From NCBI RefSeq assembly GCF_001536285.1, contig NZ_FAOZ01000001.1, positions 434,001 through 498,000 on the forward strand: a stretch of 64,000 bases of DNA. The letters run 5' to 3'. Of the stretch, positions 4,136 through 11,652 are shown one piece after another (the first letter of the stretch is position 1; the number at the start of each line of letters is the position of its first letter). The position numbers and the translations under genes are program-made. Source of the DNA: Parafrankia irregularis. GTDB taxonomy: Bacteria; Actinomycetota; Actinomycetes; Frankiales; Frankiaceae. The notes under the pieces are model-generated. The model was not told the DNA's origin. It ran no database searches and saw only the letters and a list, made by a program, of their open reading frames with translations.

Positions 4136-5194
4136 ATGCCATCTTCTACCACTCGTCGGAGCAAGCCCCGCGCCGGCGGCGACGCCAGCCCTGCCGGCAC
4201 CCACCAGCCCCGGGCGAGCCGTGCGGCCCGGGCAGCGGGCACCGGCCGGCTCCCGGTGATCGGGCTGCGCATGTTCCGGCGCCTCACGCTGGCCAGCGTC
4301 GTCCTGCTCGCGGCGATCGTCGTCACCGGCGGTGCCGTGCGGTTGACCGGCTCCGGGCTCGGCTGCCCGACCTGGCCGCAGTGTGGTGACGGCTCGTTCA
4401 CCCCCCATTCGGCCTACGCGATCAACGGCGCGATCGAGTTCGGCAACCGGCTGATCAGCATCGTGGTCGGCCTCGTGGTGCTGGCCCTGCCCATCGCGGC
4501 GCGCCTGCTCCAGGAGAAGCGGCGCGATCTGCTGCTGCTCTCGCTCGGGCTGTGGCTGGGCTTCGTCGGCCAGGCGGTGCTCGGTGGCATCACCGTCCTG
4601 GTCAAGCTGCACCCGGCGACGGTGGCCGCGCACTTCCTGCTGTCGATGGTGCTGCTGTTCAACGCCGTCGCCCTGCACCGCCGGGCCCGGCAGGCCGACG
4701 GGCCGACCCCGCTGGCGGTCCGGCCGGAGCTCGCCTGGCTCGCGCGGGTCGTGGTCGTGGTCGCCGCGGGCGTCCTCGCCCTGGGCACCGTCGTCACCGG
4801 CACCGGCCCGCACAGCGGCGACAGCGAGGACACCAAGCGGTTCGGTTTCGACATCGTCAACGTCGCGCAGCTCCACGCCGACGGCGCGATGGTCCTCACC
4901 GGCCTCACCCTCGCCATGATCTTCGCCGTGCGGCTCGCTCCCGTTCCCGCCGAGGCCCGGCGCAGCGCACACGCCCTGCTGCTCACCGTCGTCGCCCAGG
5001 CCGCGATCGGGTTCACCCAGTACTTCCTCGGCATCCCGGCGCTGCTCGTCGGCCTGCACATGGCCGGCGCGACGATCATGTGGATCGTCGCCATCCAGCT
5101 CTGGCTGGCGATGGGCGAACGGGCCCCGGCCACCGAGGCCGCCTGGGCCGGCTCCGCGGCGCGCGTCCCAGCTCCCGCACCCGCCACCGCGTGA
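4136..5194 (+). CDS. ctaA: Heme A synthase (CtaA/COX15 family)
   Basis: The membrane enzyme converts heme O to heme A for aa3-type cytochrome oxidase. After about 40 basic, Ala-rich residues there are eight hydrophobic segments. Family marks include TGGAVRLTGSGLGCPTWPQC near the first membrane helix, IEFGNRLIS, KLHPATVAAHFLLS, VAQLHADGAM and VGLHMAGA. The last three supply histidines that bind heme in this family. The position of the usual first His reads FGNR, which I recall as common in actinobacterial members. The start is ATG 4136 or ATG 4127. The long frame back to 4025 overlaps the permease gene and is not credible. Confidence 0.92.
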   Translation: MPSSTTRRSKPRAGGDASPAGTHQPRASRAARAAGTGRLPVIGLRMFRRLTLASVVLLAAIVVTGGAVRLTGSGLGCPTWPQCGDGSFTPHSAYAINGAIEFGNRLISIVVGLVVLALPIAARLLQEKRRDLLLLSLGLWLGFVGQAVLGGITVLVKLHPATVAAHFLLSMVLLFNAVALHRRARQADGPTPLAVRPELAWLARVVVVVAAGVLALGTVVTGTGPHSGDSEDTKRFGFDIVNVAQLHADGAMVLTGLTLAMIFAVRLAPVPAEARRSAHALLLTVVAQAAIGFTQYFLGIPALLVGLHMAGATIMWIVAIQLWLAMGERAPATEAAWAGSAARVPAPAPATA

Positions 5195-5240
5195 CAGGCA
5201 CCGCCTGACACCACAGTGACAGGCACCGCCTGACACCACA
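5191..5240. repeat. Perfect 25-bp tandem duplication over the ctaA stop codon
   Basis: Two identical 25-bp units lie head to tail at 5191-5215 and 5216-5240; the first contains the ctaA TGA. Each unit can itself form a nine-bp hairpin with one mismatch (GTGACAGGC / GCCTGACAC). This looks like a recent slippage duplication of a terminator-like hairpin. Confidence 0.85.
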
Positions 5241-5242
5241 CC

Positions 5243-5260
5243 CCGGAGCCGCTGCTCCGG
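5243..5260. terminator. Short inverted repeat between convergent ctaA and epimerase genes
   Basis: CCGGAGC (5243-5249) and GCTCCGG (5254-5260) form a perfect seven-bp stem with a four-base loop. A GGTCCGGACC palindrome lies just downstream. There is no U-tract, as usual for GC-rich actinomycete terminators. The position between two convergent genes supports a bidirectional terminator. Confidence 0.45.
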
Positions 5261-5301
5261 ACCCGGCTCAGGGTCCGGACCGACCCAGCGTCCGGACCAG
5301 C

Positions 5302-7179
5302 TCAGGGCGAGACGAGCGGGGTCCCGCCGGAGGTGGGCTCGTCTGCGCCGGCCGCCGGGCGCTCGTACCAGACCGTCCGGCGGACGTAGTCGATGTGGCT
5401 GATGATGATCCGCACGACCCGCCGGGACACGTCGTCCACGTCATAGGCGGAGACGGGGCCGTTCGTCCGGCTGCCCCTCGCCTCGCCGGTGGCCAGGCCG
5501 ACGGCGGCGAGGACGCGGTCGGGGCGGGGCAGGCAGGAGACCACCGCACCGGTGTCGACCCCCTCCGGATGTTCATGGGCCTCGCGGATCACCACCGCGG
5601 GGAAGCCGAGCAGGGACGCCTCCTCCGTCACCGTCCCGCTGTCGGAGACCACACACAGCGCGGCCCGCTGCAACGCGATGTAGTCCGCGAACCCGAAGGG
5701 CCGGCAGAACCGGACGAGGCCGTCAACCGACGGCGCCCGCCCCGTCGCCTCCAGCGCGTCGAGGCGCGCCCTGGTCCGTGGATGGGTGGACACGATGACC
5801 GGCACCCGGTAGCGGGCGGCCAGCCCGTTCAGCGTCTCCAGCAGGCCGGCGAGCAGCTCGGGACGGTCGACGTTCTCCTCCCGGTGCGCGCTGACGACCA
5901 GGTAGTGGCCAGGCGTCACGCCCAGCGTCGTGAGTGCCTCGGAGGCCTCGACCAGCGGCAGGTAGGCGTTCAGGACCTCCTTCATCGGCGAGCCGGTGAC
6001 GAAGATCCGCTGCGTCGGCAGGCCTTCCGCCAGCAGGTTCCGGCGGGCATGCTCCGTCGAGGCGAGGTTGACATCGCTGAGATGGTCGACGAGCCGGCGG
6101 TTGATCTCCTCGGGCACGCGGTCGTCGAAACTGCGGTTGCCCGCCGCCATGTGGAACACCGGGATGTGCCGCCGCCGCGCCGCGATCACCGCCAGCGTGG
6201 TGTTGGAGTCCCCGTAGAGCAGCAGGGCGTCGGGGGACTCGTCCGCGAAGACCGCGTCGGCGCGGGCGATGACCCGGCCGATGGTCTCCGCCGGGCTCGC
6301 TCCGACGGCGTCCAGGAAGTGGTCCGGTTTGCGGATGCCCAGCTCGTCGAAGAAGACCTGGTTGAGCTCGTAGTCGTAGTTCTGCCCCGAATGGACCAGG
6401 CAGAGGTCGACCGCCCGTTCGAGGGCGACCATCACCCTGCTGAGCTTGACGAGCTCAGGCCTGGTGCCGACCAGGACCATGACCCGCGGCCGATGCTCGG
6501 CGGGGCCGCGGCGCACCGTCGGCGCGGCTGACGGCTCGCCCACGATCTCCGTACGCGGCCCGTGCTGGGGGACGGTCGCGCGGGCCGCCGAGGCCTGCCG
6601 CTGGGCGGCCTGCCGGTCCCGGTCCCGGTCCGGGGACAGCCGGCGGCTGGGAACGGTCGGCACGGTCGGCGCCGCCGGCCCGGCCGGACCGGCGGGGGTG
6701 AACGGGGTCGACGGCGCCGTCGGCACGGTCGGACCGGACCGGACGACGGTGCCGTCCCCGACGGCACCGTCCGCCGTGCCCACCAGACCACCTGGGCGCG
6801 GCCCGGACCTGGCCACCGGAATCCGGTGCGGCAGCTGGGGCCTCGGCTCGGCCGCACCACCGAGCCCAGCCGAGTCATCGCGCCCGGCCGAAGCATTCAG
6901 CACACCCACGTCATCCAGGGCGTTCAGTCCCTCCAGGACACCCCGGGCACCTGTGCCGCCTCGGGCCGGGGAATCCGGGGCGCCCGCGTCCACCTCCGCG
7001 TCCACAGGCGCGACCGCACCGTCCGGGGCGGAGCGCAGCGGGTCCGACCACACGGAACCCGAAGCCGCCGCACCGCGCTGGCGCTGCGACCTCCCACCGG
7101 GGAGCAGCCCCCGGAGGAAGCCCGTCCGGGCCGGCTCCTCGCCGTCCCCGTTGTCGGTGCCACCCGTCGTTCTCGACAC
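5302..7179 (-). CDS. UDP-sugar 2-epimerase, FnlC/WbjD/CapG-like, with long disordered N-terminus
   Basis: Residues from about 235 to 615 align with the non-hydrolysing UDP-N-acetylhexosamine 2-epimerase family, closest in pattern to FnlC/WbjD/CapG (UDP-L-FucNAc branch). Visible marks are GTRPELVKL, HSGQNYDYELNQVFF, YGDSNTT, PEEINRR, SAHREENVD and SDSGTVTEEAS. The usual Glu of the HxEAG motif, proposed as catalytic in E. coli WecB, is Ala here (residue 345, codon 6145-6147; FHMAAGNR). The first 230 residues are low-complexity Pro/Gly/Arg/Ser sequence with no known domain. GTG 7179 is preceded by GAGGAG six bases upstream. It lies 67 bp downstream of the reductase gene, probably in one transcript. 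It may be inactive, altered in specificity, or regulatory. Confidence 0.88.
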   Translation of the reverse strand: MSRTTGGTDNGDGEEPARTGFLRGLLPGGRSQRQRGAAASGSVWSDPLRSAPDGAVAPVDAEVDAGAPDSPARGGTGARGVLEGLNALDDVGVLNASAGRDDSAGLGGAAEPRPQLPHRIPVARSGPRPGGLVGTADGAVGDGTVVRSGPTVPTAPSTPFTPAGPAGPAAPTVPTVPSRRLSPDRDRDRQAAQRQASAARATVPQHGPRTEIVGEPSAAPTVRRGPAEHRPRVMVLVGTRPELVKLSRVMVALERAVDLCLVHSGQNYDYELNQVFFDELGIRKPDHFLDAVGASPAETIGRVIARADAVFADESPDALLLYGDSNTTLAVIAARRRHIPVFHMAAGNRSFDDRVPEEINRRLVDHLSDVNLASTEHARRNLLAEGLPTQRIFVTGSPMKEVLNAYLPLVEASEALTTLGVTPGHYLVVSAHREENVDRPELLAGLLETLNGLAARYRVPVIVSTHPRTRARLDALEATGRAPSVDGLVRFCRPFGFADYIALQRAALCVVSDSGTVTEEASLLGFPAVVIREAHEHPEGVDTGAVVSCLPRPDRVLAAVGLATGEARGSRTNGPVSAYDVDDVSRRVVRIIISHIDYVRRTVWYERPAAGADEPTSGGTPLVSP

Positions 7180-7194
7180 GTCGTTCTCCTCTCT

Positions 7195-7232
7195 ACCGGA
7201 GAAGATCCACTGTCACCGGAGAAGATCTACTG
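7195..7232. repeat. Two 18-bp direct repeats before the epimerase start
   Basis: ACCGGAGAAGATCCACTG (7195-7212) and its copy at 7215-7232 differ at one base. They lie in the short spacer between the reductase and epimerase genes, just upstream of the epimerase ribosome-binding site. The role is unknown. Confidence 0.7.
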
Positions 7233-7246
7233 GCTCGGTCCACGGT

Positions 7247-8311
7247 TCAGGCGTCGGCGCGCACTCCGTTCGACGCCGACGCGCCCGCCGACGCCGAGGC
7301 CTCGGCCGACGCCGACGCCGACGCAGGGGTAGGGGCAGGGGTAGGGGCCGACGTCGCCGTCGGCAGCGACGTCGGTGTCAGGCGGCCGGCTGATGCCGCC
7401 CGGCGCACTCCGGGCACGTCCGCGACGTGCCCGGAACCGCGTCTGGAGCCCTCGATCTCGCGCCGCTCGATCGCGGTCGCCAGCTCGTCCACCATCGCCG
7501 CCCAGGCCGGCGGCCGGTAGCCTGTCACCGACCACAGCCGACGTGCGGAGAGAGCCCGGTTGCGCACCTCGTCGTCGCTCGGAACGATCTCCAGGTTGTG
7601 CCGGCCGAGCCGGTCAGCCAGCATCGTGAGCAGGTCGAACTTGGTGATGGGCTCGGAGGCGAGGTGCCAGACCCCGCTCAGGTCCGGATGCCCGACCAGG
7701 GCGAGATGCACGAAACGGGCGAACTCCGCGGTGGTGACGCCGCTGTAGACGACCCGGCGATACCCCGGGATCCGGCCGGTGGCGGACAGGAACCACTCGA
7801 CCAGGCCGGCGGGAACGGCGGCCGTCTCCAGCCCCAGCACCGACGTCCGCAGCGTGAGTGTTCCCGGCTCGGTCAGCTCACCGAGCAGCTTGGTCATCCC
7901 GTGGGCGTCGACCGGATCCGGGACGTCGTCCTCGTGGTACTCGCCCAGCCGCCCGGAGAACACGCAGTCCGAGGAGACGTGAACGAGCCTCGCGCCCGCG
8001 GCGCCGCACAGCCGGGCGAGGCGGTGTGGGAACAGCGCATTGACCTCGATCGCCGCTTGCATGCCTTGTTCACCCACCCGCCGGGCGGTCAGGCCGACCG
8101 CGTTCACGACCGCGTCGGGGCGCGTCTCCGCGAACACGTCGACCAGACTCTCCGGGTGGCACACGTCCACTCCGCACAGGACCCGGTCGGCCGGCGACGG
8201 CGAGCTCGGAGCGTGCGCCCGGACAGTCGCGGTGACGTCGTGGTCACGGACGAGTCTGCGCACCAGCTCGCCGCCGAGCATTCCGTCGCCACCGAGAACC
8301 AGTACGCGCAT
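7247..8311 (-). CDS. RmlD-like NAD(P)-dependent sugar reductase with His in place of catalytic Tyr
   Basis: This short-chain dehydrogenase of the dTDP-4-dehydrorhamnose-reductase type has 354 residues. The Rossmann motif GGDGMLGGE is at residues 7-15, SSDCVFSGRLGEY is the family strand with the catalytic Ser, and WHLASEP is the late substrate-domain segment. The YGxSK catalytic motif reads HGMTK: His137 (codon 7901-7903, CAC) replaces Tyr, while Lys141 is kept. The C-terminal 60 residues are an Ala/Ser/Pro/Thr tail. ATG 8311 has a strong GGAGGAGGAG site and the MRVLVLGG homology start; the ATG 14 codons earlier is less likely. It precedes the UDP-sugar epimerase, so a nucleotide-sugar substrate is expected. 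Confidence 0.85.
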   Translation of the reverse strand: MRVLVLGGDGMLGGELVRRLVRDHDVTATVRAHAPSSPSPADRVLCGVDVCHPESLVDVFAETRPDAVVNAVGLTARRVGEQGMQAAIEVNALFPHRLARLCGAAGARLVHVSSDCVFSGRLGEYHEDDVPDPVDAHGMTKLLGELTEPGTLTLRTSVLGLETAAVPAGLVEWFLSATGRIPGYRRVVYSGVTTAEFARFVHLALVGHPDLSGVWHLASEPITKFDLLTMLADRLGRHNLEIVPSDDEVRNRALSARRLWSVTGYRPPAWAAMVDELATAIERREIEGSRRGSGHVADVPGVRRAASAGRLTPTSLPTATSAPTPAPTPASASASAEASASAGASASNGVRADA

Positions 8312-8676
8312 CCGCTCCTCCTCCTCCGACCGTGGTCCCGCCAGGGGCGACACGCCGGATGGTCGGTCTCCGGCCGTTCTGGTCTCCGCCGGTTGGCTGC
8401 CAACCAGCCAACGCCAGGCAAGTATGACTCTAGGTAGTCAATTGATCGCCATCCGAGGTGGTGACGCGCCGAGACCAGCCGGCATCAGACACCAGAGACC
8501 GCGCATCACGACCCACATCGCCCATCACCACCCGCGCGGGTCAGCGACACCCGAGGCGCGCCGAGCGGAGATGCCGGACACAGACCAGGATGGCACTACT
8601 CTCTGCACCTGAACGCAAACTCTGCGGGTATGCAAGGTCTCGAACCGGCCGCCCGCGCGGAGCGGGACGGAGAACG
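8312..8676. other. Divergent intergenic region between reductase and methyltransferase-like gene
   Basis: No gene is supported. Segments around 8395-8455 and 8580-8640 are lower in GC and may hold the two divergent promoters. The open frame of the downstream gene extends leftwards to 8458, but composition and lack of homology argue against translation there. Confidence 0.4.
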
Positions 8677-9549
8677 GTGGGAACAGGTCGGTGGACCGCC
8701 ACAACAGGTCAGGTCGCCACGCTGCCCGGCCGCGACCGACGCCTGCGCCACCTCCGCAACAGCCACGGCGAGATCTGGGTGAACATCACCTCGTCGCACC
8801 TGGTGCTCGCGGACTTCGTGAACCTCGACCCGTCCTACTCGCCCGGGCTGGTCGGCGCGTATCCCGCGCTGGGGTGGGCCCGTGCCCTGCACCGCGCGCT
8901 GTGTGCCTCGCGAACGCTGAGCCTGCTGCGCCGGACGGGCACGGCCGCCTGGCGGGCGGTCCGGTGGCCACGGCTGGCGGCCACACTCACCCGTCACCTC
9001 CCGCGCAGGCCCGCACGCCCAGGACGGTCTGGACGAGGCCGCGGCCGCGGCTGGGCCGTCCGCCGGCAGTGGGAGGCCAGCCGGACGGCGGTCGTCGTCC
9101 GGCACCGGCCGGGCCGGCGACTGCCGTTGGCCGACGGCTCGGTTGATCACATCCTCTGCGCGCATGTCGTGCAGGAGCTGCCACCGCGCGTCGCCGGCCG
9201 GGTGCTGGCGGAATGCGCCCGCATCCTGCGCCCCGGTGGCACGCTCCACCTCGTGCTGCCGGATCTGCGCCAGGCAGTGGACCGCTATGTGCGCGGTGAG
9301 ATCGACGCCGACGAACTCGTCGCCTGGCAGCGGCTGAACGACGGGCACCGACCGGCCGACCCGCGCCGCGGTCGGCACCCGCGGCGCCGTGAACCGGCCG
9401 ACCCGCAGAACCGCTGGCACTACGACGAGCACACCGCGCAGCGCCGGCTGGTCGCCGCCGGATTCCACCTCTCGCGCACGCCCACCCCCAGCACCGGGCT
9501 GGTCGAGACCGATCCGGTCTCGCTGCATCTGGTGGCCGTCCGGCCCTGA
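8677..9549 (+). CDS. Class I methyltransferase-like protein lacking the glycine-rich SAM motif
   Basis: The C-terminal half is a clear class I methyltransferase pattern: LPLADGSVDHILCAHVVQELPP, RILRPGGTLHLVLPDLRQAVDRYVRG and a late HYDEHTAQRRLVAAGF segment, as in methyltransferases of glycan loci. The N-terminal motif I of this subfamily (usually LNLGSG ... FVNLD) reads VNITSSHLVLADFVNLD at residues 35-51, so the glycines that hold SAM are gone. About 60 basic residues sit between this and the next strand. GTG 8677 has GGAG four bases upstream; ATG 8590 is an alternative. Position between sugar genes and an LCP ligase suggests a surface-glycan role, perhaps non-catalytic. Confidence 0.7.
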   Translation: MGTGRWTATTGQVATLPGRDRRLRHLRNSHGEIWVNITSSHLVLADFVNLDPSYSPGLVGAYPALGWARALHRALCASRTLSLLRRTGTAAWRAVRWPRLAATLTRHLPRRPARPGRSGRGRGRGWAVRRQWEASRTAVVVRHRPGRRLPLADGSVDHILCAHVVQELPPRVAGRVLAECARILRPGGTLHLVLPDLRQAVDRYVRGEIDADELVAWQRLNDGHRPADPRRGRHPRRREPADPQNRWHYDEHTAQRRLVAAGFHLSRTPTPSTGLVETDPVSLHLVAVRP

Positions 9550-9722
9550 ACGGCCGGCCGAGACCGGATCAAGCCGCGCCACGCGCCGGATCGGACGGGT
9601 CCGGATTCGAGTCGGCTTGCAGGACGTTCCGTGCACCTTGGTGGACGAACCGCACAGTCCAATACGTCCGTCACATAGACTTGTTGTCCTGGTTCAGCCC
9701 GCGGCGACCATCACATCACCGT

Positions 9723-9764
9723 TGCAGACGAGCAGCATTGCTATTCATTGACTTATTGTCTGCA
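9723..9764. promoter_or_regulatory. AT-rich patch with inverted repeat upstream of LCP gene
   Basis: TGCAGAC (9723-9729) and GTCTGCA (9758-9764) form perfect seven-bp arms around an unusually AT-rich 28-base centre, about 45 bases before the LCP start. A promoter with a flanking operator is plausible. No matching -35/-10 pair was assigned with confidence. Confidence 0.35.
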
Positions 9765-9807
9765 TTCGCCGGCATCAGCTGGCTCCCGGTGTGGTGAGAG
9801 GGGCGAG

Positions 9808-11652
9808 ATGGAGGAGGCCGGCACGCGGCCTGTCGGAGATCCATCCAGCCCGACGGCACCGGTGGCCACGGAAAGCGAGCGGATCGTCCCCGACGACACG
9901 ATCCTGGATGACGCGATCCTGGATGGCACGGTCCTGGATGGCACGGTCCTCGACGGACCGCTGGCCACCGCGCCAGTGGTCGAACCGGGCGCCGAGGCCG
10001 ACGAGGCCGATCCTCTGTCGATACCGTTGGAGTCAACGGAACTACAGGAACCATCGGAACCACAGCCTGGTCGGGCCTCCCGCCGGTGGATCCGCCGGCC
10101 CCGGCGAGCGAACCAGCTCGGCGTCGACGGCATCGGCCGCCCCGCCCCGCGCGGCCCGCTGCGGCGCGCCCTGCTCGTCCTGACCTCGCTGCTGTCGCTG
10201 GTGGTCATCGCCATCACCGCCACCGGTTGGCTCGTCGTGACGTTCTACGACCGCCGGATCGACCGCGAGACGATCGCTCCACCCGCCGACATGACCGTCA
10301 CCCGGCCGCCGTCGGCACCCGTCGGTTCCGAGACCTGGCTGCTGGTCGGTTCCGACATCCGCACCGGGTCGGACGCGGCGAAGGTCGGCGGCGCCCGGTC
10401 GGACACGATGATGATCGCCCACCTGGCGTCCGACGGGACGACCCAGATCGTGTCGATCCCCCGCGACCTGCGGGTACCCATCCCGGCCTGGACGGATGAC
10501 GACGGCGACCGGCACCGCGCACGCGCCGACAAGGTGAACGCGGCCTTCAGCGCGGGCGGTCCCGCGCTGCTCGTGGCGACCCTCGAACAGGTCGCCGGGG
10601 TGCGCATCGACCACTACGCCGAACTGGACTTCGGCGGCTTCAGGCAGATGACCGCCGCGATCGGCGGAATCGACGTCTGTCTCAACGCGTCGACCTTTGT
10701 CGAAAGACATACGCTGGACAACGGCCGGACTGTCCGGTCGACGAACCTGAACGATCCCAGCTCCGGATTCGTCGGGCAGGTCGGAGTGAACCATCTCTCC
10801 GGTGAGAACGCGCTGGCGTTCGTCCGGCAACGGCATGGGTTCGCCGACGGGGACCTGTCCCGAATCCGCCGTCAGCAGGCCTTTCTCGCGGCCATGTTCC
10901 GCACGGTGCTGAGCGAGAACGTACTGCTGAGCCCGTCCCGGCTGACCTCCTTCCTCGGCGCGGTGACCGAGTCGGTGCTGCTGGACGACCAGACCGGATT
11001 CTCCGAGCTGCGCGAGCTCGCCGAGCGGATGCGCGGCATGACCACGGGCGCGGTGACCTTCTCCACCGTCCCGATCACCGGGCAGATCAACAGCCCCGTC
11101 TTCTACTTCCTCTACGACCCCGCCGCGATGAGACAGTTCTTCCGCGACGTCACCGGCAGCACAACGCTCTTCGAGCCGTCCGACGGTCCCGTCGACCCGC
11201 TTGACCTGAGCGCCGAGATCACACCGAGTGCGACTGCTGCCGCGGCCGGCTCGACGCCGGCGGCCTCCACGCGGCCCCGGGCGACGGTCACCTCGCCGGC
11301 CCCGCCGCAGACCACCGCCACGCCCACCCCGGACACCGCTGGCACGACAACCGAGCCCGGCCCGAGCGCGGAGACCTCATCCCAGCCCCAGGCCACGGTC
11401 ACCGCCTCTGCCACCGGGTCGAACGGCCAGCCGGACTCCGGCGGCTGGCCCCAGCCCTGGCCCACGGCGCTGACCGGCACAACCGCAGCCGCCGGCACCG
11501 TGAGCTGGGCCAGGGCCGCCGCTTTCGGATCGAACGTGACCGCGACCGGCGGGGCGGCCCCGACCGGCGGGGCGACCCCGACGAGCCCGTCCCCGACGGC
11601 GTCCGGGGCGCAGGAAGCGCCGGTGACCGCGGCGGCAGCCTGCATCTACTGA
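9808..11652 (+). CDS. LytR-CpsA-Psr (LCP) family cell-wall glycopolymer ligase
   Basis: LCP proteins transfer glycopolymers from lipid carriers to peptidoglycan outside the membrane. This 614-residue protein has an acidic cytoplasmic N-terminus of about 110 residues with ILDDAILDGTVLDGTVLDG repeats, one membrane helix at about 121-146, the LCP domain at about 170-450 and a Thr/Pro/Ala-rich tail. Signature residues are present: GSDIRTG, ARSDTMM, SIPRDLRVP, KVNAAF and RQRHGFADGDLSRIRRQQ. ATG 9808 has GAGAGGGG upstream; the ATG at 9748 lies in AT-rich spacer. It lies downstream of the sugar reductase/epimerase/methyltransferase group, so it may attach the glycan those genes help make. Confidence 0.93.
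   Translation: MEEAGTRPVGDPSSPTAPVATESERIVPDDTILDDAILDGTVLDGTVLDGPLATAPVVEPGAEADEADPLSIPLESTELQEPSEPQPGRASRRWIRRPRRANQLGVDGIGRPAPRGPLRRALLVLTSLLSLVVIAITATGWLVVTFYDRRIDRETIAPPADMTVTRPPSAPVGSETWLLVGSDIRTGSDAAKVGGARSDTMMIAHLASDGTTQIVSIPRDLRVPIPAWTDDDGDRHRARADKVNAAFSAGGPALLVATLEQVAGVRIDHYAELDFGGFRQMTAAIGGIDVCLNASTFVERHTLDNGRTVRSTNLNDPSSGFVGQVGVNHLSGENALAFVRQRHGFADGDLSRIRRQQAFLAAMFRTVLSENVLLSPSRLTSFLGAVTESVLLDDQTGFSELRELAERMRGMTTGAVTFSTVPITGQINSPVFYFLYDPAAMRQFFRDVTGSTTLFEPSDGPVDPLDLSAEITPSATAAAAGSTPAASTRPRATVTSPAPPQTTATPTPDTAGTTTEPGPSAETSSQPQATVTASATGSNGQPDSGGWPQPWPTALTGTTAAAGTVSWARAAAFGSNVTATGGAAPTGGATPTSPSPTASGAQEAPVTAAAACIY

Follow-up and report, generated by a model that had tools for sequence, protein, structure and literature searches.

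Two adjacent genes in the window, a 64,000-nucleotide stretch of a Parafrankia genome of 9.5 Mb (G000:C1:434001-498000), encode an RmlD/QnlA-like reductase of the short-chain dehydrogenase/reductase (SDR) type and a CapG/FnlC/QnlB-type UDP-sugar 2-epimerase. Members of this genus are mostly nitrogen-fixing plant symbionts. We judge the chances to be evenly balanced that the two proteins are remnants of a UDP-N-acetyl-L-quinovosamine/UDP-N-acetyl-L-rhamnosamine-type (UDP-L-QuiNAc/L-RhaNAc-type) pathway, no longer selected for the original chemistry, still selected as proteins and pseudoenzyme-like. Gene absences, substitutions, repeated origins of these, continued constraint and one pseudogene were observed. 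An original prediction, made from the letters of the window, had proposed that these two proteins and a methyltransferase-like neighbour each lack a catalytic residue or motif, either through repurposing together with a neighbouring LytR-CpsA-Psr (LCP) ligase or through early decay.

The features of the two genes are as follows, in window coordinates.

5302-7179, minus strand: CapG/FnlC/QnlB-type UDP-sugar 2-epimerase, 625 amino acids (aa), GTG start at 7179 with the sequence GAGAGGAG resembling a ribosome-binding site
5569-5571, minus strand: His537 codon; Arg of the AHERPE motif in 30/30 non-Parafrankia homologues
6145-6147, minus strand: Ala345 codon (GCG), equivalent to Glu117 of HxEAG in E. 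coli WecB; Glu in 30/30 non-Parafrankia homologues
6205-6207, minus strand: Ser325 codon; Thr of GDT in every non-Parafrankia homologue, adjoining the kept catalytic base Asp324
7247-8311, minus strand: RmlD/QnlA-like SDR 4-reductase homologue, most likely starting at ATG 8311 with the ribosome-binding site GGAGGAGGAG upstream; the open frame reaches 8353
7901-7903, minus strand: His137 codon (CAC; numbered from ATG 8311); Tyr of YxxxK in 11/11 scored reductases outside the His lineages

Six Parafrankia were compared: the window genome (G000), P. colletiae Cc1.17 (G017), G018, P. soli NRRL B-16219 (G019), sp. EUN1f (G020), which is the nearest relative of the window genome among the genomes compared, and Frankia sp. 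EI5c (G021). Together with 29 others they form a family-level set of 35 Frankiaceae genomes. The genus g7 (G027, G028 and G030-G033) is provisionally called Pseudofrankia here, and G028 is presumably P. inefficax EuI1c.

Active-site residues of the reductase and the 2-epimerase

The reductase matches Pfam RmlD_sub_bind (E 6.5e-32), with no CapF-type C-terminal cupin domain by Pfam, and its PDB relatives are 2ggs, RmlD and MAT2B. The Ser/Thr-Tyr-Lys triad of RmlD consists of Thr104, Tyr128 and Lys132 (PMC4832382). Ser114 and Lys141 are present in the window reductase and the codon at 7901-7903, read directly on the minus strand, is CAC; Tyr137 is thus replaced by His, as had been predicted, and the triad is incomplete. 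Tyr137, Lys141 and Trp173 were invariant in all of the 11 Tyr reductases scored (four from Pseudofrankia, one from G124 and six from plasmid clusters). An equivalence between this Trp173 and Trp153 of RmlD was considered but discarded, since the two lie at different distances from the Tyr. CAC is found at position 137 in all six Parafrankia, counting five open copies and the remnant in P. soli, and His also occurs in Pseudofrankia G031 and G032, so that two origins of the change, one in each genus, are required by the tree. Further losses among the seven His reductases affect Trp173 (4/7), Lys224 (5/7) and, in G018, Lys141, and the GxxGxxG cofactor motif (GGDGMLGG) is intact in every open Parafrankia copy. 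The frame is open in 5/6 Parafrankia; the P. soli gene is a pseudogene with deletions of 132 bp, 309 bp and 1 bp relative to G018 (L045 ~8981-9780). The C-terminal tail of the reductase (window 7247-7450, minus strand) is variable and of low complexity, with a conserved NGV(H/R)ADA-like peptide at its end; P. soli still has the DNA for this end in its pseudogene.

The epimerase matches Pfam Epimerase_2 (E 1.3e-89, score 300.9 against a cut-off of 30.6) and scores 206.4 with TIGR00236 (WecB/MnaA), slightly below the cut-off of 210.15. Its best PDB relatives, 4hwg and S. aureus CapG (7ya2), place it in the CapG-type subfamily. Orthologues occur in 23/35 Frankiaceae genomes and the frame is open in all six Parafrankia. 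The predicted Ala345 was found by direct reading of GCG at 6145-6147 on the minus strand. Ala is shared by the window genome, EUN1f and G018 (3/6 orthologues), encoded each time by GCG where relatives have GAG, and the tree requires two origins of this Glu-to-Ala change among six same-locus orthologues. A sequencing error at either codon, 6145-6147 or 7901-7903, was rejected because independent assemblies carry the same codons (GCG in EUN1f and G018, CAC in all Parafrankia). Calling Ala345 a missing catalytic residue requires caution: the E. coli E117Q mutant has an activity too low to measure, but the structure of the T. thermophilus 2-epimerase shows the corresponding Glu in contact with the 4'-OH of the sugar, and the authors doubt that it transfers a proton (PMC10622841). 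Given that Ala is patchy in the genus, the residue is probably not required for the present function.

A second loss, absent from the original prediction, concerns Arg537, another sugar-contact residue, which is lost in 4/6 Parafrankia epimerases. By alignment it is the predicted equivalent of the Arg forming a hydrogen bond to the 3'-OH in UDP-N-acetylglucosamine (UDP-GlcNAc) epimerases (PMC10622841). The window genome alters 3 of the 99 positions that never vary among 25 outside sequences (Thr325Ser, Glu345Ala and Arg537His), and the same-locus Parafrankia epimerases vary at Glu345, Asn348, Glu434 and Arg537. Asp324, Glu357/358, His432, Ser514 and Glu520, corresponding to Asp95, Glu131, His213 and the nucleotide-binding Ser and Glu of the E. 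coli enzyme, are kept in 6/6 Parafrankia, and Arg433 is kept alongside the base, the bridging His and the nucleotide-binding residues. The epimerase carries an N-terminal tail of ~215 aa of low complexity (window 6534-7179, minus strand), in which the islands ARTGFFRxWFPGxRxxRQRG and GPxVPTVPSRRLSPDR recur across Parafrankia; the GPSVPTVPS piece is also present in genus g2.

The pattern of loss and retention bears on an explanation by altered chemistry, which we consider unlikely. Both proteins would still be enzymes, acting on a different nucleotide sugar: His137 would take over the role of the acid from Tyr, and an epimerase pocket without the 3'-OH and 4'-OH contacts would accept a sugar differing there, possibly fed by the PglF/CapD-like dehydratase described below. 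It is indeed sugar contacts that have been lost, with Asp324, His432, Arg433 and the nucleotide residues retained, and purifying selection is strong. An SDR can also replace its Tyr, since WbjB has Met (PMC5774825). The T. thermophilus UDP-GlcNAc3NAcA 2-epimerase likewise lacks the Arg to the 3'-OH of UDP-GlcNAc and has Trp307 at the position of Arg537, because its substrate differs at C3'; unlike the Parafrankia protein, this active and characterised enzyme keeps Glu120, the equivalent of Glu345 (PMC10622841). The same-locus variation at Glu345, Asn348, Glu434 and Arg537 is, however, hard to reconcile with one shared new substrate, and the reductase is variable at Trp173, Lys224 and, in G018, Lys141 and has become a pseudogene in P. 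soli.

Selection after the substitutions

Because the window genome and EUN1f both carry Ala345 and His137, their divergence lies, by parsimony, wholly after the two substitutions. Between them the synonymous to nonsynonymous differences are 17:5 in the epimerase core, 14:6 in the reductase and 17:6 in the methyltransferase-like gene, with one-sided binomial P values of 2e-6, 1e-4 and 9e-6, respectively. The dN/dS ratio (omega) by the NG86 method, a check suggested for each gene, is 0.11 for the epimerase, 0.16 for the reductase and 0.14 for the methyltransferase-like gene, and the likelihood-ratio statistics against omega = 1, obtained with a pairwise likelihood script, are 50, 28 and 38 in the same order. 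All five nonsynonymous differences in the epimerase are located towards the two ends of its core fragment. For the His reductase, the genus-wide NG86 omega is ~0.24, the same as between Tyr-bearing Pseudofrankia. The GY94 omegas are lower than those from NG86, probably in part because of the extreme third-position GC, and for this reason reliance was placed on NG86 and on comparison between genes.

These values have to be set against slow decay, in which the pathway has been lost, both genes are drifting towards pseudogenes and weak residual use, or constraint from earlier times, accounts for the low dN/dS. The P. soli pseudogene with its three deletions would be expected under such decay, as would active-site residues that differ from species to species and the loss of the reductase Lys in G018 as well. 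The reductase segment remaining in G018/G019 gives an NG86 omega of 0.8, from 102 codons with 17 nonsynonymous to 6 synonymous codons in an alignment that is partly poor. Decay accords less well with a reductase open in 5/6 genomes and an epimerase open in 6/6, with strong constraint throughout a divergence that follows Ala345 and His137, the epimerase differences being confined to the vicinity of the core-fragment ends, with a genus-wide reductase omega equal to that of Tyr-bearing relatives, or with the retention of the divergent intergenic element described below. We consider slow decay unlikely as the general explanation.

Proposed parent pathway and present role

The cupin-less RmlD-like 4-reductase paired with a CapG/FnlC/QnlB-type 2-epimerase in Parafrankia resembles the known UDP-L-QuiNAc/UDP-L-RhaNAc sets, which are FnlA with QnlA and QnlB in Plesiomonas and E. 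coli (PMC6467956) and Mg534-Mg536 in Megavirus (PMC10117803). Parafrankia departs from these in having neither the dehydratase nor a close orthologue of the WbuB-like transferase, in the reductase His and in the loss of the epimerase Glu and Arg in part of the genus. The UDP-N-acetyl-L-fucosamine (UDP-L-FucNAc) pathway (CapE-CapF-CapG, WbjB-C-D or FnlA-B-C), in which CapF/WbjC carries out the 3-epimerisation and reduction (PMC5774825), was the first assumption for the parent and was abandoned. The Parafrankia epimerase is of the CapG/WbjD type, but the reductase is RmlD-like with no CapF-type cupin by Pfam, and CapE/FnlA is absent; a cupin-less RmlD-like reductase found with FnlA and a C2-epimerase fits the UDP-L-QuiNAc set better.

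Intact gene sets of this type are found in Pseudofrankia and on rhizobial plasmids. In Pseudofrankia G030 and G027 the genes for an FnlA/CapE-type dehydratase and a WbuB-like glycosyltransferase lie beside that for the reductase, and a few kb separate them from the epimerase gene. Plasmid clusters of Rhizobium, Bradyrhizobium, Mesorhizobium and Priestia have the reductase, a protein annotated as dehydratase-like and the 2-epimerase adjacent, usually with a WbuB-like transferase; a Legionella cluster is a looser case, with SDR neighbours and no annotated 2-epimerase beside them. G124 possesses all the enzyme types, an FnlA/CapE relative (44%) lying beside a Tyr reductase and the epimerase ~12 kb from the reductase. 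Within the Frankiaceae, a close FnlA/CapE orthologue (88-100% identity) is present only in G027, G028, G030 and G033, which are exactly the genomes with a Tyr reductase. None was found in the six Parafrankia, G031 or G032, whose only matches to the FnlA query are larger PglF/CapD-like proteins (~38% identical; in Parafrankia the open frames measure 658-783 aa), and close orthologues of the WbuB-like transferase are absent from Parafrankia. His is present in 7/7 reductases from genomes without the FnlA/CapE dehydratase. G031 (L054 8152-9015) and G032 (L055 8220-8939), in which the His reductase adjoins a WbuB-like transferase, lack both FnlA/CapE and a close CapG-type epimerase.

The ancestral route would have comprised an FnlA/CapE-type dehydratase-5-epimerase, an RmlD-like 4-reductase and a 2-epimerase, making UDP-L-RhaNAc/UDP-L-QuiNAc. 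With the first enzyme gone there would have been no 4-keto substrate, and demand would have been lifted from the sugar end of both active sites. Tyr in the reductase would then have been replaced by His in the ancestor of the genus. In the epimerase, the Glu that contacts the 4'-OH would have been lost twice, and most species would have lost the Arg to the 3'-OH. Purifying selection would have persisted, with retention of the Rossmann cofactor motif, of the catalytic Asp and His of the epimerase and of its nucleotide-binding residues, and the present proteins would be NAD(P)- and UDP-sugar-binding and pseudoenzyme-like. We infer that Parafrankia no longer operates the original pathway and that the two remaining proteins function without their ancestral catalysis, through ligand binding in a non-catalytic role. 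The present role is probably independent of ancestral catalysis because same-locus orthologues carry either Glu or Ala, and this variation, at a single locus and in a residue otherwise invariant, is the strongest argument for a non-catalytic role.

Several points weigh against a conversion to pseudoenzymes. The weightiest is that a low dN/dS would be equally expected of working enzymes that act on a new sugar. The PglF/CapD-like dehydratase of all Parafrankia might supply a keto-sugar. The P. soli reductase is destroyed while its epimerase keeps every conserved residue (99/99 invariant positions), so the pair cannot be obligate partners, and at least one lineage is undergoing decay. Twelve genomes of genus g2 have a CapG-type epimerase with Glu345 and the other catalytic residues and with neither a reductase nor FnlA/CapE, so that a catalytic role independent of the parent pathway is possible; in one of these, G001 (L053 7530-8753), the neighbours of the epimerase are unlike sugar genes. 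The link between the Tyr-to-His change and the absence of the dehydratase is suggestive, comprising two independent events and not being statistically strong. The number of epimerase changes is not unusual by itself, at 8/99 invariant positions over all Parafrankia compared with 2/101 in Pseudofrankia and 18/117 in g2 as controls. It is their position that stands out, 4/8 being within one residue of a ligand residue compared with 26/99 of all invariant positions, numbers too few for a firm enrichment test. The AlphaFold models of the reductase and the methyltransferase-like protein both have a mean predicted local distance difference test (pLDDT) score below 40 (36 for the latter), probably because of shallow alignments, and give no structural support.

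A member of the RmlD fold in a regulatory role is MAT2B, the regulatory subunit of methionine adenosyltransferase 2; in contrast to MAT2B, we know of no partner enzyme for the Parafrankia reductase. The latter shares the RmlD fold and a significant sequence match with MAT2B (PDB 2ydx, 4ktt), which differs in retaining a YGKTK motif. Pseudoenzymes are usually observed long after their conversion. Here the stages of a possible conversion can be followed by comparing the six closely related Parafrankia with a sister genus in which the pathway is intact and with another case, of independent origin, within Pseudofrankia: the supplier enzyme is absent, one catalytic residue is replaced throughout, others are replaced species by species, one copy is broken and the rest are under selection. 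These stages make retention for ligand binding as opposed to new chemistry testable. They also carry a warning for annotation, as a profile match alone would label both genes as working sugar enzymes.

The methyltransferase-like neighbour and the locus

The remaining features lie upstream of the reductase, in and beyond the divergent intergenic region.

8419-8448, no strand: AT-rich element CAAGTATGACTCTAGGTAGTCAATTGATCG in the intergenic region from which the reductase and methyltransferase-like genes diverge, kept in 6/6 Parafrankia
8677-9549, plus strand: Parafrankia-specific methyltransferase-like protein, likely start GTG 8677; frame open from 8458
8779-8829, plus strand: conserved segment VNITSSHLVLADFVNLD, at the place where a glycine-rich S-adenosylmethionine (SAM) motif would be expected
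9748-11652, plus strand: LCP-family protein by Pfam, a syntenic neighbour in 6/6 Parafrankia; start uncertain

All three frames had been described as intact with good starts. They are open, but the start of the methyltransferase-like gene is poor: the region up to ~8676 is not conserved as protein and contains an in-frame TGA in G021, and GTG 8677 rather than 8458 is probably the start. Where the orthologues in G018, G019 and G021 have their ATG, the window genome and EUN1f have TGG. Pfam Methyltransf_11 is matched above the cut-off (E 6e-9) over profile positions 44-93 of 95 only, and this second half is matched by 6/6 orthologues. The predicted VNITSSH does stand in the expected SAM-motif position, as read in VNITSSHLVLADFVNLD. 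The glycine-rich SAM motif I was not found in any of the six orthologues, which have VNITSSH, VNVTSSH or LNITSTH instead and no profile match over the first half. This segment is among the best conserved parts of the protein, and in a motif search the pattern occurred in 6/6 Parafrankia and 0/29 other genomes of the family.

A family-wide scan of genome contigs, together with the motif search, found the methyltransferase-like protein in Parafrankia only, and a class-level search (297 genomes, 8 candidates scored in each) and a plasmid search outside the genus matched the second half of the domain only. Loss of a canonical glycine motif would therefore be deduced from domain position, no relative carrying one over the first half having been found. 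This neighbour stands apart from the two sugar enzymes: it is genus-specific and conserves a non-canonical motif of its own, and we would guess that it is a non-canonical or non-catalytic protein of methyltransferase fold.

A single cause for the three proteins was rejected, given a conserved methyltransferase motif, a reductase change found throughout the genus and a patchy epimerase change. The expectation that relatives share the substitutions is borne out for the reductase His and the VNITSSH-type motif throughout the genus but not for the epimerase Ala, with 3/6 and two origins. The genus-wide His and motif and the low dN/dS mean that simple decay is no explanation in most lineages; of the alternatives put forward originally, decay applies in one place, the P. 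soli reductase.

The epimerase-reductase block, divergent from the methyltransferase, LCP, DUF1707 and 12673 genes, keeps its synteny in 6/6 Parafrankia, and the ctaA/ABC flank is common to the window genome and EUN1f only. The proposed repurposing jointly with the LCP ligase is unsupported, the conserved neighbourhood being the only basis for a functional tie. The element at 8419-8448 is a probable divergent promoter or operator. It has no second copy in the window genome at up to 3 mismatches, hence no regulon is indicated, and a scan of window 5100-9900 found no sigma-70-type promoters. An improbable extension of the pseudoenzyme reading is that loss of the first enzyme repeatedly converts downstream enzymes to conserved pseudoenzymes, the tailed reductase and epimerase being cofactor and UDP-sugar sensors that would share a locus-specific divergent promoter with the methyltransferase-like protein and the LCP transferase and act on cell-wall polymer assembly. 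A second conserved, apparently non-coding element lies at ~8575-8605 in the same intergenic region.

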